From a virus: DNA of 40,368 bases. Shown here in pieces: positions 11,702-34,370 of this stretch. Location: IMG/VR virus record IMGVR_UViG_3300024348_000105, positions 1 through 40,368 of that record, one strand, 5' to 3'. Every line of letters starts with the position of its first letter. Position 1 is the stretch's first letter. The translations under genes were made by a program, and so were the position numbers. Under the pieces are notes generated by a model. The model was not told where the DNA came from. It saw only the letters and a list, made by a program, of their open reading frames with translations, and made no database searches.

Positions 11702-12304
11702 ATGGAACTGTATCACAGCGCCCTTCTAAAAGGTTACGTCACATTCAATGATGTAAAGCCAACTTCATTTGCACAGTTGCCTAATGGCATAATTATGCAG
11801 AATGATTTTATTAAAAATGGTTTGCCACAACAATTTGACAACTGTGACTTTTTATATGCTGAACCACCTTGGCCGCATGGCTTAAAAGTATTTAACAAAA
11901 GAGCGGGAATTGATGATTTTCCCTATGAAAGATTGGTAAATTCATTTAATCAGCTTTTGCAATCTACTGATAAACCAATTTATATGTTTGTTGGTTTACA
12001 AATTTTAAAAAAATTAATTCAGCCAAAGCAAGTTTTTGATACCAAACTAAATGGTGGTGATGGTTTCATGGCAGTATGGAATGACAGCTATAATGGTAAC
12101 CATGAAAGCACAGTCGCTATTTGTGAAAACTTGGGTAAGCGATACGCTGTAATGGGGGAGTTTATGGCTGGCTATGGAGCGTCAGTTAAAAGCTTTTTAA
12201 GGGGAGGCGGCAAAAGATTTGTGGCGGCTGACTTTGATGGTAAATGCGTAACAGTTATGGCTTCACAAATAGGGCGGTTCAATGAAAATCTATCTAAAGA
12301 GTAA
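11702..12304 (+). CDS. Amino-methyltransferase-like protein (beta-class order)
   Basis: 200 aa. CDFLYAEPPWPHG (49-60) looks like catalytic motif IV of N4-cytosine/N6-adenine methyltransferases ((D/N/S)PP(Y/W)), with Glu in place of Asp. GEFMAGYGAS (152-161) looks like SAM-binding motif I (FxGxG), followed by KRFVAADFD. Motif IV before motif I is the beta-class order. No long target-recognition domain fits in 200 aa. Either a compact methyltransferase or a decayed or repurposed one. It overlaps the IbrA-like gene by 23 bases. Confidence 0.66.
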   Translation: MELYHSALLKGYVTFNDVKPTSFAQLPNGIIMQNDFIKNGLPQQFDNCDFLYAEPPWPHGLKVFNKRAGIDDFPYERLVNSFNQLLQSTDKPIYMFVGLQILKKLIQPKQVFDTKLNGGDGFMAVWNDSYNGNHESTVAICENLGKRYAVMGEFMAGYGASVKSFLRGGGKRFVAADFDGKCVTVMASQIGRFNENLSKE

Positions 12305-13469
12305 TGTCTTTGAAGCTGCGCTGGAGCGCATAAACCGCATATTTGATGACTTTGACAACGTGGTTATTTCGTCAAGCGGTGGCAAGGACAGCACGGTAAC
12401 AATGCAGCTTGCCCTAATGGTGGCAGAGCAGCGCGGTAAGCTACCACTAAAGATGGTATTCCTAGACCAAGAAGCTGAATACCGCATGACCATTGAGTAT
12501 ATGCGTATCGCAATGGCTGACCCCCGTGTAGAGCCTATATGGATACAATGCCCCATCAAGCTGTTTAACGCTACGTCAATGGATGACCCGTGGCTAAAGT
12601 GCTGGGAGGTGGGCGGTGATTGGATGCGGCCCAAGGAAAGCTTTAGCGTCACAGAGAATGTTTTTGGCACTGACCGCTTTCACGATATGTTTCCCGCTGT
12701 CTTAGAACATTATTTTCCCAATGAAACGGCTTGCTACCTTGCTGGCGTAAGGGCGGAAGAAAGCCCAACTAGATTGGCTGGCCTTACATCTGGTTCCACA
12801 TACAAAGAAATAACGTGGGGCAAAAAGCTTAACGAGAAAAAAGGACACTACACCTTTTACCCGTTGTATGATTGGACACTGTCAGACGTATGGAAGGCTA
12901 TACACTCAAACGGCTGGGACTATTGCCAGATATACGATGAACTATACCGCTACGGCATTGCGCCGCACAAAATGCGGGTATCAAACTTGCACCATGAAAC
13001 TGCCGTGCATAGCCTGTTCTTTTTGCATGAAATAGAGTCTGACACATGGGAAGCGTTGTCAAATAGGCTTGGGGGCATTAATCAAGCCAAGCATATGTCA
13101 AAAGATGAAATGTTTGCAGTGCAGAAGTTGCCGTATATGTTTGCATCATGGCAGGAATACCGCGACTACCTGACTGAAAAGCTAATTACGATACCAGAAA
13201 ACAGGGAAAAGTTTGTCAAAATGTGGGCAAGGCACGATGCCTACTACGGCGACATGAACTTTGCAGAGGATTTGCATAAGAAACAAATATCATCCTTGCT
13301 GGTAAATGATTGGGAGTTTGTGAAGCTGGCTGGTTTTCTGAATAGCCCACCTATGATTGTCTACAAAGAGTGGAAGAAAAATCAGTTGCACAACAGGCCA
13401 AGGACAGAGGCCAACATGAAATATATCAAAAGGGAACTTGTTCATGCATCCTATACACTCAATAATTAG
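12282..13469 (+). CDS. ibrA: IbrA-like PAPS reductase-family protein (PP-loop, DUF3440 type)
   Basis: 395 aa. Residues 27-40 hold the PP-loop SSSGGKDSTVT that binds the adenylyl group in PAPS reductases and DndC. FLDQEAEYRMTIEYM and GVRAEESPTR follow as in that family. FYPLYDWTLSDVWKAI and the C-terminal region from about 250 match the IbrA arrangement with a DUF3440-like extension. E. coli IbrA acts with IbrB to regulate surface-protein genes; its biochemistry is not settled. The gene directly downstream is an IbrB homologue, which strongly supports the call. A genuine sulfur reaction cannot be assumed. Confidence 0.85.
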   Translation: MKIYLKSNVFEAALERINRIFDDFDNVVISSSGGKDSTVTMQLALMVAEQRGKLPLKMVFLDQEAEYRMTIEYMRIAMADPRVEPIWIQCPIKLFNATSMDDPWLKCWEVGGDWMRPKESFSVTENVFGTDRFHDMFPAVLEHYFPNETACYLAGVRAEESPTRLAGLTSGSTYKEITWGKKLNEKKGHYTFYPLYDWTLSDVWKAIHSNGWDYCQIYDELYRYGIAPHKMRVSNLHHETAVHSLFFLHEIESDTWEALSNRLGGINQAKHMSKDEMFAVQKLPYMFASWQEYRDYLTEKLITIPENREKFVKMWARHDAYYGDMNFAEDLHKKQISSLLVNDWEFVKLAGFLNSPPMIVYKEWKKNQLHNRPRTEANMKYIKRELVHASYTLNN

Positions 13470-14103: not shown

Positions 14104-14524
14104 TTGGGAACGTATTAAGACGCAGTTTATTAATGGCGGCGGCACATATGCGTCACTAGCCAAAGAGCATGACGTTAAGGAAACTGCCATACGCGCACGG
14201 GCAAGCCGTAACAAATGGATAGAAGAACGTAACCAAGCGTCACTGATTGTCACAGAAAAAGCCGCTAACGAAATGATGAACGAACGGGCAACGCAATTAG
14301 CCCGATGGAATGATGAAGATATACAACTGGCACGGGCAATACGTTCACGCGCTGCAACGCTTATGGTGGGCAAAGGTGACACACTGTCAGAGACAGAGTT
14401 AAGAACTATTGCCAGTGTAGTAGACACAGCACAAAAGATTGCGCGTCTGGCCTTTGGCGCTGCAACTGAAAACAGCATTGTAAGCAACAGGGAACTACCG
14501 TCATCTATCCATGAGTTTGTTTAA
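14093..14524 (+). CDS. Terminase small subunit
   Basis: 143 aa, GTG at 14093 with AAGAGG 9 bases upstream; a TTG at 14084 is too close to that site. The N-terminus (PDWERIKTQFINGGGTYASLAKEHDVKETAIRARASRNKW) is a helix-turn-helix DNA-recognition domain like that of small terminases. The rest is helical with a long central segment suited to ring oligomerisation. It binds the packaging site and presents DNA to the large subunit encoded one base downstream (TAATG overlap). The identification leans on this position. Confidence 0.8.
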   Translation: MKPDWERIKTQFINGGGTYASLAKEHDVKETAIRARASRNKWIEERNQASLIVTEKAANEMMNERATQLARWNDEDIQLARAIRSRAATLMVGKGDTLSETELRTIASVVDTAQKIARLAFGAATENSIVSNRELPSSIHEFV

Positions 14525-15756
14525 TGGGTCTTACCCCTACTCAAATGGCATTTGCCACCTGTAGGGAGCCTTTTCCCGCCTTTGTTGGTGGCTTTGGTTC
14601 TGGCAAGACAGCCGCTGCTATGGCTAGGGCAATGGCGCTAAAGACAATGGATAAAAGCTGTGACATTGCTTACTATCTGCCGACCTATGGCCTAGTATCA
14701 GACGTTGCCTTTAAACGCTTTCCCGAACTGTTAGAGCGCCGTGGCTTTGCATACAAATTGCATGAGCATAAAGGTTACATAGAGTTTCCCAATGCAGGGC
14801 GTATTATTTTTAGAACAATGGAACGTTCTGAACGCATTGTTGGTTATGAGGTAGCGCACAGCATAGTCGATGAACTTGACACCCTGCCTATCCACAAAGC
14901 CCGTGACGTATGGAACAAAGTGATTGCGCGTAACCGCCAGAAAAGCACAATACCAAACACAGTCGCTGTAGCAACAACACCAGAAGGCTTTCGTTTTGTC
15001 TATGAACGGTGGGTAAAGAATGGCGGGGCTGGCTATAAGTTGTTTAAAGCACGGACAATTGAGAACGCAGCCAACCTACCAGAAGGCTACATTGACAACC
15101 TTACAGCCTCATACCCGCCAGCACTGTTATCAGCATACCTAGACGGTGAGTTTGTAAACCTTACAGGCGGCGCAATATACGCAGAGTTTGACAGGCTGCT
15201 TAATCAAACATTTGAAAAAATAGGCGTTGGCGAACCATTGCACATAGGCATGGACTTTAACGTTATGAACATGAGCGCGGCAGTTGGTGTAATGCGTAAT
15301 GGTGTCCCGCATTTTGTGGATGAGATAACAGGTGCGCGTGATACGCCACAAATTATAGAAATTATACGCAACCGCTACGCAGGGCATCCAATATTTATTT
15401 ATCCAGATGCCAGCGGTAGTGCGACCAAGAGCGTAAATGCCAGCCTGTCAGATATAACGCTACTGCGAACGGCTGGCTTTACAGTGCTGGCACATAACCG
15501 CAACCCAAGCATCAAAGACAGGGTTCTTGCAGTAAACCAAATGATATTGCGGGACGGTGAGCGCAGATTGTTTGTAAACCCTGACAAATGCCCAACTTTA
15601 ATTGAGTGTTTAGAGCGCCAAATCTATGGAAAAAATGGTGAGCCTGACAAAACTTCTGGCTTTGACCACTTAAACGATGCCATTGGCTACCTAATTGCCT
15701 ATAAGTATGGTATTGGTCGGGGAACAGTTTCATTTGCACAAATTGCAGGGGTTTAA
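14524..15756 (+). CDS. terL: Terminase large subunit
   Basis: 410 aa with both enzymatic domains. The ATPase has Walker A GGFGSGKT (22-29) and Walker B HSIVDELD with the catalytic Glu (112-119), plus a TTPEG coupling motif (151-155). The RNase H-like nuclease has GMDFNV (Asp244), YPDASG (Asp295) and FDHLNDAIGY (Asp381/Asp385). It drives ATP-powered DNA packaging through the portal and cuts the concatemer. The length is typical. Nuclease and ATPase residues are all present, so it should be functional. Confidence 0.95.
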   Translation: MGLTPTQMAFATCREPFPAFVGGFGSGKTAAAMARAMALKTMDKSCDIAYYLPTYGLVSDVAFKRFPELLERRGFAYKLHEHKGYIEFPNAGRIIFRTMERSERIVGYEVAHSIVDELDTLPIHKARDVWNKVIARNRQKSTIPNTVAVATTPEGFRFVYERWVKNGGAGYKLFKARTIENAANLPEGYIDNLTASYPPALLSAYLDGEFVNLTGGAIYAEFDRLLNQTFEKIGVGEPLHIGMDFNVMNMSAAVGVMRNGVPHFVDEITGARDTPQIIEIIRNRYAGHPIFIYPDASGSATKSVNASLSDITLLRTAGFTVLAHNRNPSIKDRVLAVNQMILRDGERRLFVNPDKCPTLIECLERQIYGKNGEPDKTSGFDHLNDAIGYLIAYKYGIGRGTVSFAQIAGV

Positions 15757-18488: not shown

Positions 18489-21400
18489 ATGGCACTATTG
18501 AAGTTTAAGCGCAGCGCGGTTCCTGCAAAGATACCAAGCATTGCAGACCTTGCATTGGGCGAACTTGCTATCAATACCTATGATGGTAAGGTTTACACCA
18601 AGAAAGACGATGGAACTGCATCTATTGTTGAGGTGGGCGGTAGTGGCGGCATCACCACCATAACATCGGCTGATGGTTCGGTTACTGTAACTGGTAGTGG
18701 CGCAACCCGCGACCTTTCCGTTGCTGTTGCTGGTTCCACCACTAATGTCGTTGCGCTTGTTCGCAACAACACTGGCGCGACATTGGCAAAAGGCACTGTC
18801 GTTTACATAAATGGTTCGCTTGGTCAAAACAGCACGGTTGCCAAAGCCATTGCAAACAGCGACTCAACGTCTGCCCAAACGCTTGGCTTGATGACCGCTA
18901 ACCTTGCCAATAACGCAACGGGCTATGTCACTGTCATTGGCGTCCTAACAGGCATGGATACGTCTGCATTTACGGATGGGCAACAGCTTTACCTAAGTCC
19001 AACAACGGCTGGAACATTTACGGCCACTAAACCTTATGCTCCACAGCATTTGGTATATGTTGCCGTTGTTGAACACGCCCACCCTTCGCAGGGCAAGCTA
19101 TTCGTTAAAGTGCAAAACGGCTATGAGATGGATGAATTGCACGATGTATCGGCGCAAAATCCAGCGAACAATGATGGCCTGTTTTACAACACAACGTCTG
19201 GCCTCTGGGAAAAGAAGTCTATTGCTACGGCCCTTGGCTACACGCCCTACAACGCCACTAATCCAAGCGGCTACACTACAAACGTAGGGACAGTCACGTC
19301 AGTAGCTGGCACAGGAACTGTTAGTGGGCTTACGTTAACAGGTAGCGTTACTGGCTCTGGCTCACTGACGCTTGGTGGAGCAATAACGGGCTTTCTGCCC
19401 CTTACTGGCGGAACACTTACGGGCGCACTGACTGTTCCTGTTAACAGCGGAACAACAGGTGGCGGCATCAATTTTGCTGGTGCGGGAAGCACATTCATTC
19501 GGGGAACAAGCGGGGACGGTGCAAGCAGCACTACATCTAACCTACAGCTTCAATCATGGTTTGGCATTGGCTTTGGCCCAAGCATTACGGGACAGACTGT
19601 CCCTGTAGGCGAAAACGCAGTGTGGATTGATTGTCGTGCTGGCACTTTAAATGCCAGAACATTTCTTAAAGCACCTAACACTTACACAGGAGCCACGGGT
19701 AGACTTTATGACGATGGGAACTTCCACATAGATGGAATTGGCTCTCCTGTCTGGATTAACTCTCTAAGCAACAGCACTATTGAACTGAACACACAGACCA
19801 CTGGTTATGTGAATATCGGAAACAGCGCCCGTGCGCCTATCTACTACGATAGCGCCAACACTGCGTATTATATTGACGCAGCGTCTAACTCGGTTCTGAA
19901 TACGCTGACACTTGGTGGCCGCGCTACAACAAATGCCGTTTTCTATTCTGGCTTTACGCTTGACGCTAATACCATGCTAACAAACAGCACGGGCTTCACA
20001 TACGCCCTAAATGCGCCGTTTACTGGCCCTATTGTGCGGCTAGGTCACGGCGCATACGACTTGTTTTTCAATGCGCCTTACAGCGAAAGCGGTTACGCAC
20101 TCGCTTTCCGCACTCAAAACGGTGACACGGCTACAAATAACCCGTGGCGTTATTCTGTAGTTTATGACGTTAACCGAGCTGCAAACATATACGGTTCAGC
20201 CTTTTACGACAGCAATAACACTGCGTTCTTCTTTGATGGAGCCAGCACAACGAATATTAACACGCTTTCTGGTAACAATAAGACCGCTCTTGAAACTGCC
20301 GACAGCTATCTTCGTATCAATCAAAGTAGCACATTTTCTAATGGTATATGGTTAGGTAGCAGCCACATTGGTGGTAGTGGCACAACGCTTCATCTTGGTA
20401 GCAACGGCGACTCCACTTTAGCTCGCATTCGCCTTATTAGTGGAACTTACAGCGGCAGCACAGTAATCACTCTTAACGGTGCTGATGGCATTGGAACGTC
20501 TACTGCTAGTTGGCGCGCACCAATCTTCTACGACAGCAACGACACTGGCTACTACATAAATCCCAACGGTGACAGCAACCTTAGCAAGACCTTTACCTAT
20601 TTAGGCGGCAAGGACACAAACGCTAACTGGAATACTGGCTTCCAAAATACGCCGCCACAAGCCTATAACTTTCATGGCGACATTTCTAGCGGTGGCCCCG
20701 CTGGAACATGGTGGTTCTACGAAAGTATGCGGCACTCAAACGCAAGCAATTATTGGGGGACGCAAGTTGCTTGGGGTTGGGAAGATAACGAAAGGCGGCT
20801 GCTACAGCGCAACGTAAGCAATGGCACGTTTAGCGCGTGGGTTGAGTATCTAAACACCAGTGGCCGCACATACTCTGGCAACCTTACAATGACTGGTTCA
20901 ATTATATCGTCAGCAAGCGATGTAAGAGCGCCGATATTCTATGACCAGAACAGCACTGGTTACTACGTTGACCCGAATAGCAATTCGGTTCTCTACAGTT
21001 TTGACAACATAAATCAGCGTTGTTCTTATAGCCGTCAATGGGAAAATTATCCTGGAATTTCAGTATATAACACTACTGACCAAGGGCCACAGGCTGATTT
21101 CCGCATCTTTGGTTCTCCTGGCGCTAATGGTGGCGATTTCTCTGTTCGCTTGCTTGTTGATGGCGACATCCAGACACTAAACGCGCTTCGTGCAGGAAGT
21201 TTAGCCTCTGCACCAATTTACTACGACAGCAACAACAGTGGCTATTATCTTGACCCCAATGGTGGCTCATATTTAAACGGCGCTACATTTACCGACCTAA
21301 TAACTGGCCGCAATAGTCCTTCCACAGACGTAAACACTGCCAACGACACTGGCTCTATCTCCATTAGGGGTAGCACTACAACGGTGGCGGCTGTGTCGTT

Positions 21401-21818
21401 CCACCGCGCTGGTGCGTATGCCATTAACATGGGACTTGGAACTGATAACGTGTTCCGCATCGGTGGTTGGTCAGCCAGCAGCAACGCTTTCCAAATGGAC
21501 GGCAGCGGCAACCTTACCATGCTTGGTAACGTCACGGCATATTCAGACGCTCGACTAAAAAAAGACGTTTTAACCGTAACCAACGCGCTTGAACTTGTCA
21601 GCAAGATGCGTGGCGTTACCTACACTCGCATAGATACGGGTGAGGCTGGCGTTGGCGTTATAGCTCAGGAAATGTTGGAGGTTATGCCCCAAGTTGTTCA
21701 ACAAGGTATTGGTGAGGATGACACTCTGTCTGTTGCCTACGGAAACCTTGTCGGCGTGTTAATTGAAGCTATAAAAGAATTACGAGTTGAAGTAGAAACA
21801 TTAAAAAATAGGAGTTAA
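18489..21818 (+). CDS. Large tail-spike/fibre with S74 endosialidase-type chaperone
   Basis: 1,109 aa. The N-terminus has the MTD-like module (LLKFKRSAVPAKIPSIADLALGELAINTYDGKVY). A middle structural part includes VRNNTGATLAKGTVVYINGS and TGYVTVIG. Five copies of a 23-residue motif of the type APIFYDSNNTGYYxDPNxxSxL follow between about residues 446 and 927, typical of beta-rich spikes. The C-terminus (about 1019-1109) is a peptidase S74 intramolecular chaperone (SDARLKKDV, GVGVIAQEMLEVMPQVV, SVAYGNLVGVLIEAI) that folds the trimer and then cleaves itself off. The primary receptor-binding candidate. Confidence 0.88.
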   Translation: MALLKFKRSAVPAKIPSIADLALGELAINTYDGKVYTKKDDGTASIVEVGGSGGITTITSADGSVTVTGSGATRDLSVAVAGSTTNVVALVRNNTGATLAKGTVVYINGSLGQNSTVAKAIANSDSTSAQTLGLMTANLANNATGYVTVIGVLTGMDTSAFTDGQQLYLSPTTAGTFTATKPYAPQHLVYVAVVEHAHPSQGKLFVKVQNGYEMDELHDVSAQNPANNDGLFYNTTSGLWEKKSIATALGYTPYNATNPSGYTTNVGTVTSVAGTGTVSGLTLTGSVTGSGSLTLGGAITGFLPLTGGTLTGALTVPVNSGTTGGGINFAGAGSTFIRGTSGDGASSTTSNLQLQSWFGIGFGPSITGQTVPVGENAVWIDCRAGTLNARTFLKAPNTYTGATGRLYDDGNFHIDGIGSPVWINSLSNSTIELNTQTTGYVNIGNSARAPIYYDSANTAYYIDAASNSVLNTLTLGGRATTNAVFYSGFTLDANTMLTNSTGFTYALNAPFTGPIVRLGHGAYDLFFNAPYSESGYALAFRTQNGDTATNNPWRYSVVYDVNRAANIYGSAFYDSNNTAFFFDGASTTNINTLSGNNKTALETADSYLRINQSSTFSNGIWLGSSHIGGSGTTLHLGSNGDSTLARIRLISGTYSGSTVITLNGADGIGTSTASWRAPIFYDSNDTGYYINPNGDSNLSKTFTYLGGKDTNANWNTGFQNTPPQAYNFHGDISSGGPAGTWWFYESMRHSNASNYWGTQVAWGWEDNERRLLQRNVSNGTFSAWVEYLNTSGRTYSGNLTMTGSIISSASDVRAPIFYDQNSTGYYVDPNSNSVLYSFDNINQRCSYSRQWENYPGISVYNTTDQGPQADFRIFGSPGANGGDFSVRLLVDGDIQTLNALRAGSLASAPIYYDSNNSGYYLDPNGGSYLNGATFTDLITGRNSPSTDVNTANDTGSISIRGSTTTVAAVSFHRAGAYAINMGLGTDNVFRIGGWSASSNAFQMDGSGNLTMLGNVTAYSDARLKKDVLTVTNALELVSKMRGVTYTRIDTGEAGVGVIAQEMLEVMPQVVQQGIGEDDTLSVAYGNLVGVLIEAIKELRVEVETLKNRS
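19827..21272 (+). repeat. Five diverged copies of the YDSNNTGYY motif inside the spike
   Basis: Copies lie at about 19827-19895, 20193-20260, 20512-20582, 20921-20993 and 21201-21272. Each encodes (R/S)AP(I/-)(F/Y)YDSxNTxYYxDxxxxSxL. Spacings are irregular (about 280-410 bases), so they mark the starts of larger structural units and are not a simple tandem array. Confidence 0.75.
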
Positions 21819-27640: not shown

Positions 27641-28093
27641 ATGTCTGATATTGTTTCTTCAGTCGGGACAGTTGTTTCCGTTTCGGTTACTGCTCCCGCT
27701 ACTTATGATGCTACTGGTTTTGCTGCTCTAACGTGGTCTGCCTGTGGCGAACTTGCTGATTTGCCAGCGTTTGGTGCAGAAGCTGCGCTTGCTACTCACA
27801 CGCCTCTTAAAACTGGCGTTGTTGCAAAGCGCCGTGGTTCGCTAAACTATGGTTCTGTTACTTTGACAATGGCTTTGTCTGACACAGACGCTGGTCAGGT
27901 TATTCTAGCAACTAAGGGCAGCGCCGCCGCTGGAGCCAGCGCAAGCGTTTCCGTTAAGGTTGTGCTTGTAAACGGTGACATCCAGTATTTCACTGCTCAA
28001 GTTATGTCTTACAAAACGAATGTCGGCAATGCTGATGCCATCACTATGGCAGAAGTTACGCTTGAAATCGACAATTCGGTCGTTAAGGTTTAA
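27641..28093 (+). CDS. Major tail tube protein
   Basis: 150 aa, GGAGG before the ATG. The protein is Ala/Val/Ser/Thr-rich with strand patterns (GTVVSVSVTAPATYDATGFAAL, HTPLKTGVVAKRRGSLNYGSVTLTMALSDTDAGQ, VTLEIDNSVVKV). These are usual in siphovirus tail tube proteins with one short helix after residue 80. It lies upstream of the tail-assembly chaperones and tape measure, as expected. Codon use is again clean, fitting abundant expression. Confidence 0.8.
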   Translation: MSDIVSSVGTVVSVSVTAPATYDATGFAALTWSACGELADLPAFGAEAALATHTPLKTGVVAKRRGSLNYGSVTLTMALSDTDAGQVILATKGSAAAGASASVSVKVVLVNGDIQYFTAQVMSYKTNVGNADAITMAEVTLEIDNSVVKV

Positions 28094-28176: not shown

Positions 28177-28584
28177 ATGTCTTTTGACCTTAATTCATTA
28201 AAGCCAGTTATGGCTGACGATGGCGCTATTCTTAATATTGTGCATCCCGAAACGGAAGAACTTATTAAGGGTATGACTGTGACCCTGCTTGGACAGGACA
28301 GTAAAATTTACCGCAAGCTTCAACTTGGCAAGCAACAGGCCGCATTGAACCGCATGGCTAAAGGCAAAAAGGCGCTTGACCTTGATGCTGAAAAGCTTTC
28401 GGAAGATAGCATTGACGATTTAGTCAAGCTTACAATTGCATGGTCTGGCTTTGAACTAGATGGCAAAAAGCTTGAATGCAATCCAGAAAACGTCCGCAAA
28501 GTATATGCTGACTGGGCTTGGATTAAAGAACAAGTGCAGGAGTTTGTCGGGAACCGCGCTAACTTTTTTCGCGCAAACGATTGA
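28177..28584 (+). CDS. Tail assembly chaperone, G-like
   Basis: 135 aa. Opening residues SFDLNSLKPVMADDGAILNIVHPETEELIKGMTVTLLGQDS and a helical middle (KLQLGKQQAALNRMAKGKKALDLDAEKL), ending in a typical IAWSGFELDGKKLECNPENVRKVYADWAWIKEQVQEFVGNRANFF segment, match tail-assembly chaperones of the lambda gpG/HK97 type. In the last codons the sequence AAC-TTT-TTT-CGC can shift +1 into the frame that carries the downstream T-like domain. The 0-frame product ends in RAND. It coats the tape measure during tail assembly. Confidence 0.8.
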   Translation: MSFDLNSLKPVMADDGAILNIVHPETEELIKGMTVTLLGQDSKIYRKLQLGKQQAALNRMAKGKKALDLDAEKLSEDSIDDLVKLTIAWSGFELDGKKLECNPENVRKVYADWAWIKEQVQEFVGNRANFFRAND

Positions 28585-29008
28585 ACAACTATCAACTTTC
28601 GTTAAACACGCAGCGTGGTTGAACACAATACCGTCAAAGGCCAAGCGCCCAAGACGAGAAACCAAGTCGGATGCCATGCCTCACGTTGAGGCTGGCACTC
28701 ACTTGCTAGAGATTTTATTTGAAGTTGGGCCATCCAAGCCATCTGGCATGGGCGGTCAAGTTGGTATTGATGAGATTGACCTAGTAGCGTGGCAATATAA
28801 TCAGGGTGTCAACCTTACACCTTGGGAAGCCAAGACGATACGCAGTCTTTCTAAGGACTATGCGTATATGCTGGGACAAGCCAGTGATGCTAATTTTCCG
28901 CCACCTTGGGTAGACCCCAACATTATGACTGACGCAAGGCGAAGTAAAATTGCTGAAGCAATGTCATCATGGGCTGATAGTTTTAATGTGGGCAAGACAA
29001 GTCAATAG
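28562..29008 (+). CDS. Tail assembly chaperone, T-like domain reached by +1 frameshift
   Basis: In the +1 frame the reading runs TFFAQTIEQLSTFVKHAAWLNT on to TEVGPSKPSGMGGQ-like text (actual: FEVGPSKPSGMGGQVGIDE, then LTPWEAKTIRSLSKDYAYMLGQA). The PSGMGG...DLVAW...LTPWE pattern is the second half of siphovirus chaperone fusions. There is no good start codon or ribosome site inside the frame before that text. TTT-TTT-C at 28564-28570 lets Phe-tRNA move from TTT to TTC (+1), as in influenza PA-X (UUU-CGN). Fusion would be about 276 aa (131 plus 145). Confidence 0.78.
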   Translation, partial: TFFAQTIEQLSTFVKHAAWLNTIPSKAKRPRRETKSDAMPHVEAGTHLLEILFEVGPSKPSGMGGQVGIDEIDLVAWQYNQGVNLTPWEAKTIRSLSKDYAYMLGQASDANFPPPWVDPNIMTDARRSKIAEAMSSWADSFNVGKTSQ

Positions 29009-29048: not shown

Positions 29049-32000
29049 GTGGCAGATTTAGCAAACCTAAGAATTGGCGTAGATAGCCGCGAAATTAAGT
29101 CTGCCACAGCTGACCTAAATGCTTTGGGTAGCGCAGCTTTAGGCGCTGAACAAAAGTCAAATGGCCTCACAAAAACATTCGGTAATTTGCGCGGCGCATT
29201 AGCTGGCATAGGCTTTGGCTTAATTGCCCGTGAATTAGTAACAATGGCTGATACGTTTACTAATATGCAAAGCCAAATTAGATTGGTTACTTCTAGCACT
29301 TCTGAATTAGCCGCTGTTCAAGGCCGCTTATTTGAAATGGCGCAGAATAGCCGTGTCAGTTATGAAGGCACTGTAGACTTGTATGCGCGGCTTGCGCGTT
29401 CAACTAAGTCACTAGGCGTTAGCCAAGAGTCAGTTTTAACGGTTACTGAAAGCATTAACAAAGCGTTGCTAGTTTCGGGCACAAGCTCAACCCAAGCTTC
29501 TGGGGCATTGATGCAGCTAGGCCAAGCCTTTGCATCTGGCACGTTGCGGGGCGATGAACTAAATTCAGTCATGGAAGGTATGCCTCGCGTTGCCACCATG
29601 ATTGCTGAAGGCATGGGCATTACTGTTGGTGAGTTGCGGAAGCTGGGCGCTCAAGGCAAGCTTACAGGCGCTGAAGTATTTAACGCCATTATGAAAATGA
29701 AAGACAGCGTTGAGGTTGAGGCGGCTAAAATGCCCATGACCTTTGGGCAGTCAATGACCAAGCTTCGCAACGCCTTGATACAATTTGTCGGCGGTAGCAA
29801 TGAGGCGCTGGGCATAACCAGAACGCTTGCATTGTTTATATCTAAGCTATCAGAAAACCTTGATGTTCTAGCGGTGGCCGCTGGGGGCGCTGTGCTGGCT
29901 TTTGTGGCATTAAAAGCCAGTATGGGCATAAGCTTTATCGCAACTTACATTCGCTCTGTAGTGGGGCTGCAAATGGCTTTAGGGGCTACTGGAACGGCTT
30001 CGGCTGTTTTTAGTGCTGGCCTTAAAATGATACAGACATCTTTTGCATCATTAACGGCGACCATGATGCTCAATCCTTTTGTTGCTGTAGCGACTGCAAT
30101 CATAGCAGTTACAACATTGCTATACGCTAATCGTGACGCACAGGTTCAAGTCCAAGGCCAAACGGTGCGGCTTGGCGATGTGTTTGTTGGCATTTTTGAA
30201 GTTATTAAACAGGTCGTGACTTTTGCCGCTAAAGTTTTTCGTGAAGGCTGGTCTTCAGCTATAGGCTCAATAGCGCCAAGGCTTGCGTGGCTGGGCGGTG
30301 TCTTTGACAGTGTATTCTCTGCAATTGGTAGCTTTATTAAAGGGTTTATCAATAATCAAATTGGCTTCTTTGCGGGGCTTTGGGCGGCGGTAACTGCTAT
30401 CTTCAAGGGTGAAGATATTACAGACGCTTTTGGCGCAGCATTTAAAAAAGATTATGTTGGCGGATTTACTAAGCAAGTTGGCGACGGAATTGTTGCGTTG
30501 GCAAACCTTGGCGCAGAAGCAAACAAAGCTAACGATGCGGCTGTCAATTTAGGCGAAAATGGATTTGCCAAGGCTGGTGCAGGCGCTGATGCCTCAAAGA
30601 AAAAGACCAAAGAGGCAACAGATGCCTTAATGGAGTATTACAAGGGTTTAGTAGAAACAGGCAAGTATCTTGGCATCACTAATGAATATGAAATAAAAGC
30701 GGCTATGGCTCGTGAAGCTAATCGCGGTGCGCTTTCTGCACTTATTTTAACGCAGGGCAAGGCCAATGAAGCAAAACAACTAGAACTTGATAACGAAAAA
30801 AAACGCCAAGACTTTATTAAAGGCACGTTGGCTGACCTGTTATTTGAAAACACATTAATTGGCATGGGCGCAAAAGAACGTGAAAAAGCTATTGCCGTTC
30901 GCGCTTTGGAAAATGCTCAATTAGCTAAAGGCACGGCAGAGTATGACAAATACCTAGCCGCTATTTCAACTGGCTCTGACGCTAAGGTTTTGGATGACCA
31001 AAACAAGCGCATAAATGCGTTACAACAAGAAATTATACTAATGGGATTGCTTGGCGATGCCGCTGTCCTACAGGCTGCAAAATTTGCTGCTTTAGCCGCT
31101 GGCCTAAAAGAAGGCACGGATGCCTATGAGCAGTTTATTGCCAAGGCTACCCAAGAAGCTGGTCTTCAAAAAACCGTTGATGGTTTACAGGCTATTAAGG
31201 ATGCTATGCAAGAGGTCAAAGATATGACCTTTGACATTGACCTTGAGGGTGTCTTTGGAAATGTTGGCAAGGCTGTTGGTGGCTTGGTCAATGTTTATGA
31301 TGATTTTGCCAAGCGCCAAGAGGTTCTTGCCAAGGCAATGAGCAAAGACAACAAAGATGAAGTTGGTCGCCGTATGGCGCAGCAAAAATCATTCCGCAAC
31401 GAGATTAACCTTTATGGAAACTTAGCGGCATCAGCCAAGGGCTTCTTTAAAGAAAAGTCTGTAGGCTATAAAGTGATGCAAGCGGCTGAAACTGCTTTCC
31501 GTGCTTTTGAGTTTGCTATGTCAATTAAGGCAATGGCAATGAACACGGCTGAAGCTACAAGCACAGTTGCTACAGAAGCAACTAAGACTGCGGCGCAAAC
31601 AGCATCTGGCGCGTCAAAGATGTTTAGCCAGCTTGGTATTTATGCTTTCCCCATTGTTGCTGCAATGATTGCTGTCATGGCAAGCTTGGGCGGCAAGGGT
31701 GGCAGCGTAGCAACTCCAAGCATTCCTACGGCAGAAGATATGCAAGCTGCACAAGGCGCTGGGAGCGTGCTGGGTGATAGCACGGCCAAATCTGACAGCA
31801 TTAACCGTGCGCTGGAGATTATGTCTGAAAACAGCAACACAGACCTTGAATACAGCAATCAAATGCTGTTGTCGCTTCGCTCTATCCAGAACAACATGGC
31901 TAACCTGTCAAACAATGTAGCCAAGCAAATATCTGTCAGCGGCGGTATGTTTGACACATCTGGTCAAAAGCTAGGCGCAAGCGGCTCTGGTGGCTTCCTT

Positions 32001-34370
32001 GGCATTGGCGCGTCAAGCACCACACGCTCATTGCAAGACCTTGGCATTGACATTGTATCATCATCTATTGCAGAAATTATTGCTGGCGGCATTAGTGGCA
32101 GCACATATCAAGTTGTTGAACAGGTCAAAAAGAAGTCTGGCTTCCTTGGCATCGGTGGCGGCACAAAGACAAGCTATCAAACCACAACTGGTTCTATTGA
32201 CCAAGACGTTCGCAATTCAATTACGGGCGTTATCATAAGCTTGCGTCAGGGCTTGATTGATGGCGCTGATGTTATTGGCTTGGATGGCGCACAAGCCATT
32301 CTTGATAGCTTTGAGGTTAGCATTGGCAGAATAAGTTTGTCAGGCTTGACGGGTAGTGAAATTGAAGAACAGCTTAACGCTATCTTCTCAAAGGTTGGCG
32401 ACCAAATGGCTGGGGCTTTGTTGCCGTCCTTGTCAACAATGCAGAAAATTGGTGAAGGTCTATTTGAAACCTTTGCGCGGGTGGCTCGTGAGTATCAAGT
32501 TGTTGATGTGGCACTGCGCTCCATTGGCAAAGAGTTTGGCGCTGTCGGCATTTCTAGCGTGGCTGCACGCAGCGCATTGGTGCAAATGTTTGAAAGCCTT
32601 GACCAATTTGTTGAGCAAACCAATTATTTCCGTGACAATTTTCTAACAGAAGCAGAGCAGCTTGCGCCTATTACGAAAGCTGTTTCTGACGAATTGCAGC
32701 GCCTTGGTTTATCTTCCATCTCTACCATTGAGCAGTTTAAGTTGGCGGTGCTTGGGCTAGACCTTACAAGCACGGCAGGACAAGAAGCATATTTTGCAAT
32801 GCTGCAACTGGCTCCAGCGTTTAAAAAGGTAGCTGATGCACAAGCTGAAATTGCTGAAAAGCAAGTGGCGGCTGCAAAGGCTGTAGCTGATGCTGCGGAA
32901 AAGTCTGCCAAAGCAGTCCAAGATTTGCAAAACAAACGCGCATCAATGGAAATACAATTGCTTGAGGCGCAGGGCTTTGCAAGTGAGGCTTTAGCTGCGC
33001 GGCGTAATGCTGAACTTGAAGCAATGGATGAAAGTTTGCGCGGTCTGCAACTGCAAATATATGCAGCGCAAGATGCCAAGCTTGCTAATGATGCTCTTGC
33101 TGCGGCTGCAACGGCTGCATCTGCGGCTGCTAAAGTAGCGGCTGATTTGCAAAAGAGCAGAGTTGACCTTGAAATTCAATTGATGGATGCACTTGGTAGG
33201 TCAACTGAAGCCTTATCAGCACGCCGTGCAATAGAATTGGCTGCACTTGATGAAAGCTTGCGTAGCCTACAGCTACAAATTTACGCAGCGCAAGATGCTA
33301 AGGTTGCCAGTGAAGCGGCTGCTGAAGCTGCAAGAACTATGGCCGCTGAACAACAGCGCGTGTCGGAAGAAGCATTGGCTCTTGCTCGTGACCAGCGTTC
33401 GCTTGAAATTCAACTGCTAGAAGTGCAGGGCTTTGCGCTTGAAGCGTTGGCCGCTCGTCGTTTAATGGAAATTGAAACGATAGATGCAAGCTTGCGTGGC
33501 CTACAATTGCAGATTTATGCCGCTGAAGATGCACGGGTGGCAACTGAAGCTGCGGCTGAAGCTGCTAGGGCCGCTGCCGACGAACAAGCTAGACTTGCTG
33601 AACAAGCTTTGTCTATTGCTCAACAGCGCCGTGTTCTTGAAATTGAATTGCTTGAAGCGCAAGGTTTTGCCGTAGAAGCATTGGCGTTGCGCCGTGCAAT
33701 GGAATTAGAAACTATTGATGCAACGCTTGTTGGTCTTCAAGAGCAAATTTGGGCAGCGCAAGCTAGGGCGGAAGCAGATGCAATTGCTGCACAAGCTGCG
33801 GAAGATGCGGCTGATGCACAAGTCAAAGCTGCGGAAGATGCGGCGCAAGCTATGCAGAAATATGCTGACACACTGGCAAGCGTTAGCCAAACGGTTGTTG
33901 AGGAAATTAACCGTCTGCGCGGCATTAATGCGTCATCATCTTCTGTTCTGTTAAAGGCTCAATTTGCTACACTTACGGCGCAAGCACGGAATGGCAATCT
34001 TGATGCACTTGGCAAGCTTCCAGAACTAAGCCGTTCAATTGAAGAAGCAACGCTAGGCAGTGCAACATCTGCGCTTGAAGTAGCACGGATACGCGCATGG
34101 CTTGATGCAAGCCTTAGTGAAACTTTGGCATCAAACGCTTTGTCGGGTGGCATGATAAACGCCACTAGCACTGACTTAACCTTTGACGGCAATAACACGG
34201 CCTCTGCTAATGCAGACCAAACATCTGGTGAACTATCAAATATGAGTAATGTGTTGTATACGGCCCTATATCAAGTCGCTAAAAACACGGGCAAGTCTTT
34301 TGAATTGCTTGACCGTTGGGATGGTGATGGTCTGCCAGATATTAGGGAGGATGCCAGTGATTATTATTAA
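29049..34370 (+). CDS. Tail tape measure protein
   Basis: 1,773 aa, GTG start with AGCGAGG upstream. Residues 1-60 are LRIGVDSREIKSATADLNALG-type. The family N-terminal region (about 60-230) includes YEGTVDLYARLARS, LQLGQAFASGTLRGDELNSVMEGMPRVATMIAEGMG and GEVFNAIMK-like text. Hydrophobic helices lie near 272-300, 338-358 and 858-880. Four 74-78-residue coiled-coil repeats occupy about 1290-1590. It sets tail length and is threaded into the host on infection. At roughly 1.5 angstrom per residue it predicts a tail of about 265 nm, long for a 40-kb phage. Confidence 0.93.
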   Translation: MADLANLRIGVDSREIKSATADLNALGSAALGAEQKSNGLTKTFGNLRGALAGIGFGLIARELVTMADTFTNMQSQIRLVTSSTSELAAVQGRLFEMAQNSRVSYEGTVDLYARLARSTKSLGVSQESVLTVTESINKALLVSGTSSTQASGALMQLGQAFASGTLRGDELNSVMEGMPRVATMIAEGMGITVGELRKLGAQGKLTGAEVFNAIMKMKDSVEVEAAKMPMTFGQSMTKLRNALIQFVGGSNEALGITRTLALFISKLSENLDVLAVAAGGAVLAFVALKASMGISFIATYIRSVVGLQMALGATGTASAVFSAGLKMIQTSFASLTATMMLNPFVAVATAIIAVTTLLYANRDAQVQVQGQTVRLGDVFVGIFEVIKQVVTFAAKVFREGWSSAIGSIAPRLAWLGGVFDSVFSAIGSFIKGFINNQIGFFAGLWAAVTAIFKGEDITDAFGAAFKKDYVGGFTKQVGDGIVALANLGAEANKANDAAVNLGENGFAKAGAGADASKKKTKEATDALMEYYKGLVETGKYLGITNEYEIKAAMAREANRGALSALILTQGKANEAKQLELDNEKKRQDFIKGTLADLLFENTLIGMGAKEREKAIAVRALENAQLAKGTAEYDKYLAAISTGSDAKVLDDQNKRINALQQEIILMGLLGDAAVLQAAKFAALAAGLKEGTDAYEQFIAKATQEAGLQKTVDGLQAIKDAMQEVKDMTFDIDLEGVFGNVGKAVGGLVNVYDDFAKRQEVLAKAMSKDNKDEVGRRMAQQKSFRNEINLYGNLAASAKGFFKEKSVGYKVMQAAETAFRAFEFAMSIKAMAMNTAEATSTVATEATKTAAQTASGASKMFSQLGIYAFPIVAAMIAVMASLGGKGGSVATPSIPTAEDMQAAQGAGSVLGDSTAKSDSINRALEIMSENSNTDLEYSNQMLLSLRSIQNNMANLSNNVAKQISVSGGMFDTSGQKLGASGSGGFLGIGASSTTRSLQDLGIDIVSSSIAEIIAGGISGSTYQVVEQVKKKSGFLGIGGGTKTSYQTTTGSIDQDVRNSITGVIISLRQGLIDGADVIGLDGAQAILDSFEVSIGRISLSGLTGSEIEEQLNAIFSKVGDQMAGALLPSLSTMQKIGEGLFETFARVAREYQVVDVALRSIGKEFGAVGISSVAARSALVQMFESLDQFVEQTNYFRDNFLTEAEQLAPITKAVSDELQRLGLSSISTIEQFKLAVLGLDLTSTAGQEAYFAMLQLAPAFKKVADAQAEIAEKQVAAAKAVADAAEKSAKAVQDLQNKRASMEIQLLEAQGFASEALAARRNAELEAMDESLRGLQLQIYAAQDAKLANDALAAAATAASAAAKVAADLQKSRVDLEIQLMDALGRSTEALSARRAIELAALDESLRSLQLQIYAAQDAKVASEAAAEAARTMAAEQQRVSEEALALARDQRSLEIQLLEVQGFALEALAARRLMEIETIDASLRGLQLQIYAAEDARVATEAAAEAARAAADEQARLAEQALSIAQQRRVLEIELLEAQGFAVEALALRRAMELETIDATLVGLQEQIWAAQARAEADAIAAQAAEDAADAQVKAAEDAAQAMQKYADTLASVSQTVVEEINRLRGINASSSSVLLKAQFATLTAQARNGNLDALGKLPELSRSIEEATLGSATSALEVARIRAWLDASLSETLASNALSGGMINATSTDLTFDGNNTASANADQTSGELSNMSNVLYTALYQVAKNTGKSFELLDRWDGDGLPDIREDASDYY
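32925..33785 (+). repeat. Four tandem repeats in the tape measure gene
   Basis: Units begin around 32946, 33168, 33402 and 33636 (spacings 222, 234 and 234 bases). Each encodes (L/M)EIQLLEAQGFAxEALAxRRxxE(L/I)ExxDxSLxGLQxQIxAAxxA followed by an Ala-rich helix. Bases have diverged more than the encoded pattern, so the repetition is old. The repeat unit lengthens a coiled coil. Confidence 0.85.

Follow-up and report, generated by a model that had tools for sequence, protein, structure and literature searches.

A probable programmed +1 frameshift at UUU_C in a phage tail assembly chaperone gene and its relatives

The phage contig examined here (G000) is the complete virus record IMGVR_UViG_3300024348_000105, the 40368 bases of which are referred to as the window. 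It raises the question of how the two parts of a putative tail assembly chaperone are joined. Frameshifted tail assembly chaperones are classical, and most phage tail chaperones slip one base backward (-1). In the window, the ORF at 28177-28584 ends as AAC TTT TTT CGC GCA AAC GAT TGA (28561-28584), and the following C-terminal domain is open in the +1 frame through 29008. A sequence-only reading of the contig had proposed TTT-TTT-C as a candidate +1 programmed frameshift site. This proposal is supported by every sequence-based test available: the gene is very probably a chaperone gene of the phage lambda G/GT type, the long form of which is predicted to be made by programmed +1 frameshifting at UUU_C.

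The chaperone gene and its genomic context

The window exhibits an ordinary structural module of the long-tailed phage type, with genes for the terminase large subunit (14524-15756), the portal (from 15757), a head morphogenesis protein (from 22381) and the major head protein (from 24125). Among deposited terminases, the nearest is from Caulobacter phage DMCA (56% identity). The G/T gene, on the + strand like both of its neighbours, occupies the position expected of a tail assembly chaperone. Upstream lies the major tail (tube) protein gene (27641..28093; PHROG 158 major tail protein, E = 1.7e-12), and downstream the tape measure protein gene (29049..34370, 1773 aa, GTG start; Pfam TMP_3, E = 4.1e-67; PHROG 3336). 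No tRNA gene was found in the window. A phosphoadenosine phosphosulfate reductase gene (12282-13469; PHROG 2302, E = 4.9e-80), a sulfur metabolism gene of host-like type, is located upstream of the terminase. An ORF for a 1109-aa tail-fibre-like protein (18489-21818) is found between the portal and head morphogenesis genes, the usual place of such genes being after the tape measure.

The zero-frame product G (28177..28584, 135 aa, stop TGA at 28582-28584) matches PHROG 313, tail assembly chaperone (E = 3.1e-14). Its AlphaFold model (pLDDT 76) matches predicted structures of several phages in BFVD labelled "tape measure chaperone" or "tail assembly chaperone", among them the tape-measure chaperone of Caulobacter phage Sansa (E = 1.9e-4); against solved structures, neither the G nor the T model gave a significant match. 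The T domain exhibits weak hits to PHROG 18915, 4966 and 20700. In a second family of relatives described below (family B), G and T align to consecutive stretches of a single tail assembly chaperone family, PHROG 8233. A distant blastn search of the G/T region against annotated phages returned no match. The junction to T falls out of frame close to where G ends, an arrangement kept in the relatives. From position, family and fold matches we infer that the gene at 28177-29008 encodes a tail assembly chaperone of the gpG/gpGT type.

The frame relation differs from that of a canonical -1 chaperone, in which an X_XXY_YYZ heptamer gives access to a T in the -1 frame: here T is in +1. The shift site AAC_UUU_UUU_CGC (28561..28572, + strand) places a Phe codon in the E site (28564-28566), UUU in the P site (28567-28569) and CGC in the A site (28570-28572), and offers a UUC codon in the +1 frame (28568..28570). 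Skipping one base at TTT_C, join(28177..28569,28571..29008), gives a predicted GT fusion of 276 aa spanning 28177..29008, in agreement with the length of about 276 aa given by the sequence-only reading. T itself, read only after the shift, corresponds to 28571..29008 (145 aa and the stop) and is a conserved protein in an alignment of 16 rows.

That reading had also seen no convincing start for T. In the window, the T frame extends without a stop back to 28460 and does hold ATG codons at 28460 and 28505 and a TTG at 28544. None of the three is preceded by a usable ribosome site, the AGGAG near 28539 standing only one base ahead of the TTG. The absence of a usable start thus held, and several relatives described below have no start codon at all; the window's frame is not devoid of them.

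Conservation of UUU_C in two families of relatives

Close relatives (family A) were collected by IMG/VR scans with G, T and their alignments, plus one scan of GTDB genomes. Both parts were found at 157 loci, with T in the +1 frame in 157/157. All 72 distinct sequences carry TTT in the P site and a C directly after it. The preceding codon is TTT in 45 and TTC in 27. The T6C string proposed as the conserved element is therefore not kept as such, and what persists of it is UUU_C. The A-site codon is CGC in 64, CGT in one, CGA in one, CAC in three and CAA in three sequences (the last two codons in L127-L129, L133, L136 and L137), i.e. CGN in 66/72. The stop of G lies 2, 5, 8 or 18 codons from the P site, a variation indicating that the stop is not part of the signal.

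The family-A alignment columns point to a switch of coding constraint exactly at the site. Column entropy follows the zero-frame third positions up to the base before the P-site codon, then come the four invariant bases TTTC, and from there on the variation is at third positions of the +1 frame. The conservation of T extends right up to the shift site. In L012/L037 and L016, a T-frame stop is found 18 nt upstream of TTC and is followed by no ATG, GTG or TTG. On the tree of the 72 sequences, the P-site Phe codon has undergone no synonymous change, whereas Phe codons elsewhere that are wholly or largely conserved have undergone 10, 4 and 7 (in G) and 9 and 8 (in T); an N-terminal Phe codon present in 43/72 also shows none. 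The invariance of the P-site third base could in part come from dual coding, because this base doubles as the second base of the Phe codon in the +1 frame.

Family B is centred on Limnohabitans phage DC31 (PQ492658), the G protein of which is about 32% identical to that of the window. Its site reads AAC TTT CGA TCC GAG TGA, with T in +1. A scan with the DC31 G returned 61 loci; T could be placed in 58 of them and in DC31 itself, and is in +1 in all of these (59/59). Curvibacter phage P26059A (KY981271) exhibits the same site pattern. In 46 distinct sequences the P-site codon is TTT (46/46), preceded by AAC or AAU and followed by CGA in 28, CGC in 12, CGT in four and TGC in two, so that CGN occupies the A site in 44/46. 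The two TGC sequences (L223 and L224) have UUU_UGC in place of UUU_CGN, where re-pairing would be from UUU to UUU. The P-site Phe codon again shows no synonymous change; in G, the seven remaining well-conserved Phe codons have 5-7 each, and the well-conserved ones in T have 1-7. In most members the T frame is closed two codons before TTC and contains no start codon. The shift must therefore fall on AAC or UUU, of which only UUU (to UUC) re-pairs. Since the +1 frame is closed just upstream, the dual-coding objection is removed in this family.

Both families appear to favour particular Arg codons in the A site: CGC in family A relative to its own Arg usage (p = 2.5e-16) and CGA in family B (28/44 Arg codons against 70/575 elsewhere, Fisher p = 6e-14), p values that are overstated because the sequences within a family are related. 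The overlapping T codon may account for part of this preference. CGN is favoured in the A site without being required. These data bear out the suggestion that the site resembles the UUU_CGN shift to UUC of influenza PA-X. We also sought among the relatives an in-frame G-T fusion or a separate T start with a ribosome site, either of which would have spoken against a frameshift; neither was found.

Proposed mechanism and rival explanations

In the simplest reading, the Phe-tRNA (anticodon GAA) in the P site would slip from UUU to the UUC of the +1 frame while the A site waits. Shifted ribosomes would read on through GCG CAA ACG to make the 276-aa GT, and the remaining ribosomes would stop at UGA and release G, of 135 aa. 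If the proteins act as in lambda, the tape measure protein would be coated by G, and the tube protein brought in by T. A single tRNA reads both UUU and UUC, and P-site slippage from UUU to UUC is the favoured model for influenza UCC_UUU_CGU, where the +1 shift was established by mass spectrometry (PMC3498833). Firth et al. also noted the CGN preference and predicted a class of UUU_CGN-type sites (PMC3498833). We infer a translational event of this kind, its efficiency and the tRNA re-pairing included. The predicted +1 junction peptide of the window is ANFFAQTIEQLSTFVK. Two members are isolated, so the junction peptide is directly searchable; the predicted +1 tryptic peptide of the DC31 GT is EAVVEESGQILNFDPSEIEEAVAFAK.

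No conserved stimulator was found in either family, which counts against the +1 explanation in that the expected efficiency is then hard to predict. No downstream RNA structure was detected (RNAalifold, -0.5 kcal/mol in family A and 0 in family B), and relative to the rest of the gene, local folding is reduced in family A (z = +0.7) and no more than slightly increased in family B (z = -0.8). The last 24 nt before the site contain no Shine-Dalgarno-like motif in family A, and the GAGG/AGGAGG of family B is too far upstream (21-24 nt) to be retained as a stimulator. No Arg codon is used more often in the window than CGC (15.4 per 1000), so a pause at a rare A-site codon is not obvious in family A either.

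Two other explanations had been raised by the sequence-only reading itself, and the comparison of relatives disfavours both. A -2 slip on the U6 run would reach the same frame with one extra Phe (ANFFFAQTIEQLSTFVK being the predicted junction product in the window). UUU_UUU_C permits it, and the chaperone of phage Mu is a natural -2 case (PMC3498833). A Mu-type site must allow re-pairing after the -2 move; the Phe-tRNA would instead be brought onto UCU in the 27/72 family-A sequences with UUC_UUU_C, and onto ACU or AUU at the AAC_UUU or AAU_UUU of family B, none of them an acceptable pairing. Moreover, a C is retained after UUU; its identity bears on re-pairing after a +1 shift but is irrelevant to a -2 slip. 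We thus regard -2 slippage as very unlikely. A one-base assembly or sequencing error in T6, splitting one continuous gene, was a natural concern for a reading that saw one contig only, homopolymer runs being error-prone. Its probability has become vanishingly small: the same frame break recurs at 157 family-A loci from many metagenomes, some of them without a T6 run, and in the deposited genomes of the two family-B isolates (PQ492658 and KY981271).

RNA polymerase slippage on the T run would yield mixed mRNAs; T runs are its usual substrate, and bacterial type III secretion genes provide known examples (PMC5009743). The run here is six T at most, is interrupted as TTCTTT in 27/72 and is reduced to three T in most of family B, which renders this explanation extremely unlikely. 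The break of T6 by TTC in those 27 sequences means that neither assembly error, nor -2 slippage, nor transcriptional slippage explains the join. A T gene with a start codon of its own, or translation of T by re-initiation past the G stop, is likewise very improbable. The two T-frame ATG codons of the window would be compatible with such a start, but they lack a ribosome site, L012/L037, L016 and family B offer no start between the last T-frame stop and the conserved part of T, and the conservation of T reaches right to the shift site.

Changes of frameshift direction and comparison with known systems

Phages related to family A or B have T in the -1 frame, with ordinary heptamers close to the corresponding position. 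Read by eye from the frame relation, these heptamers are A_AAU_UUU in Acinetobacter phages Effie, MD-2021a and HHU4, A_AAU_UUC in sewage phage 438212, G_GAU_UUU in Roseobacter phage CRP-6, G_GGA_AAC in Pasteurella phage Pm86, G_GGA_AAG in Mannheimia phage 1152AP2 and U_UUU_UUC in Rhizobium phage RHph_X2_24. T is also in the -1 frame in Burkholderiales prophages, and a scan for further relatives of this group returned three loci only, all -1. A tree of 42 fusions groups family B with the Pasteurella and Mannheimia phages (99/98), and family A with the Acinetobacter phages and Burkholderiales prophages (96/95). A single +1 clade uniting both families was rejected (AU p = 3.6e-8), within the limits set by the root and the long branches; two direction changes are still needed after removal of the three longest rows. 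The direction of frameshifting has changed at least twice, and the UUU_C +1 site seems to have arisen twice, the choice between two gains and one gain followed by a return depending on the root of the tree. Thus the direction can change near one site with the fusion protein kept. We think it likely that UUU_C is a minimal +1 cassette, operating without RNA structure, Shine-Dalgarno element or adjacent stop, which two lineages adopted independently at one and the same position of a homologous chaperone where their relatives use -1 heptamers, selection acting to preserve whether and how much GT is made, not which way the ribosome slips.

The locus shares with lambda gpG/gpGT the order tube protein - G - T - tape measure, a short and an extended form with a common N-terminus, and a shift near the end of G. 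The lambda shift is -1 at G_GGA_AAG, whereas here it would be +1 at UUU_C with no tandem -1 heptamer. SPP1 gp17.5/17.5* (UUUUUUC) and RHph_X2_24 have the same U6C string at the G-T join, but shift by -1. In RHph_X2_24 (L233, 2360-2375) G is in the other phase of U6C, a mirror image of the window site; the phase in SPP1 is taken from a published description (PMC6316719).

With influenza A PA-X (UCC_UUU_CGU) and the UUU_CGN sites of amalgaviruses and related viruses, the phage site has in common a P-site UUU followed by C, the CGN preference and the lack of an evident stimulator. It differs in being used by bacterial ribosomes, in having Phe or Asn rather than UCC in the E site and in tolerating CAC and CAA; there is no homology. 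Reportedly, E. coli argI undergoes +1 shifting at UUU-pyrimidine (Fu and Parker 1994; Schwartz and Curran 1997), UUU_Y being intrinsically +1-prone in bacteria as at the phage site. The argI shift is an incidental error, whereas the present site is retained in many phages and leads into a conserved domain. FseA of ICEMlSym-R7A (msi172-msi171) exhibits a conserved +1 shift at UUU that fuses two overlapping ORFs, likewise in proteobacterial elements; it is an unrelated protein, a transcription activator, with a suggested WG nascent-peptide stimulator.

Programmed +1 shifts in bacteria are few, and the majority of known cases depend on a stop codon or a Shine-Dalgarno element. Two deep families in which UUU is invariant, the C after it nearly so, and no stimulator visible would offer a natural test, with replication, of what suffices for useful +1 shifting in bacteria. 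Whether motifs of this kind serve cellular genes was left open by Firth et al. (2012; PMC3498833). The earlier remark that +1 is less usual than -1 in phage chaperones is fair, but the direction is not unique: a +1 frameshift was predicted for the tail assembly chaperone of the haloarchaeal virus HSTV-2 (PMC5009743), and the PRFect training set, mostly chaperones, contains 350 forward sites (PMC10885494). The likeness of these HSTV-2 and actinophage sites to the present one is one of direction. Frameshifted and predicted +1 chaperones were therefore already known; a UUU_C +1 chaperone with a replicated evolutionary record is new in the literature searched, which covered few subscription papers and described none. 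The papers describing isolates DC31 and P26059A mention no frameshift.

Deposited annotations in this phage group commonly overlook or truncate the T domain. In DC31 (L070, 3415-3891; PQ492658) no gene is annotated in the T region, and in P26059A (L230, 2412-2876; KY981271) T is annotated only from an internal start, as P26059A_0023.
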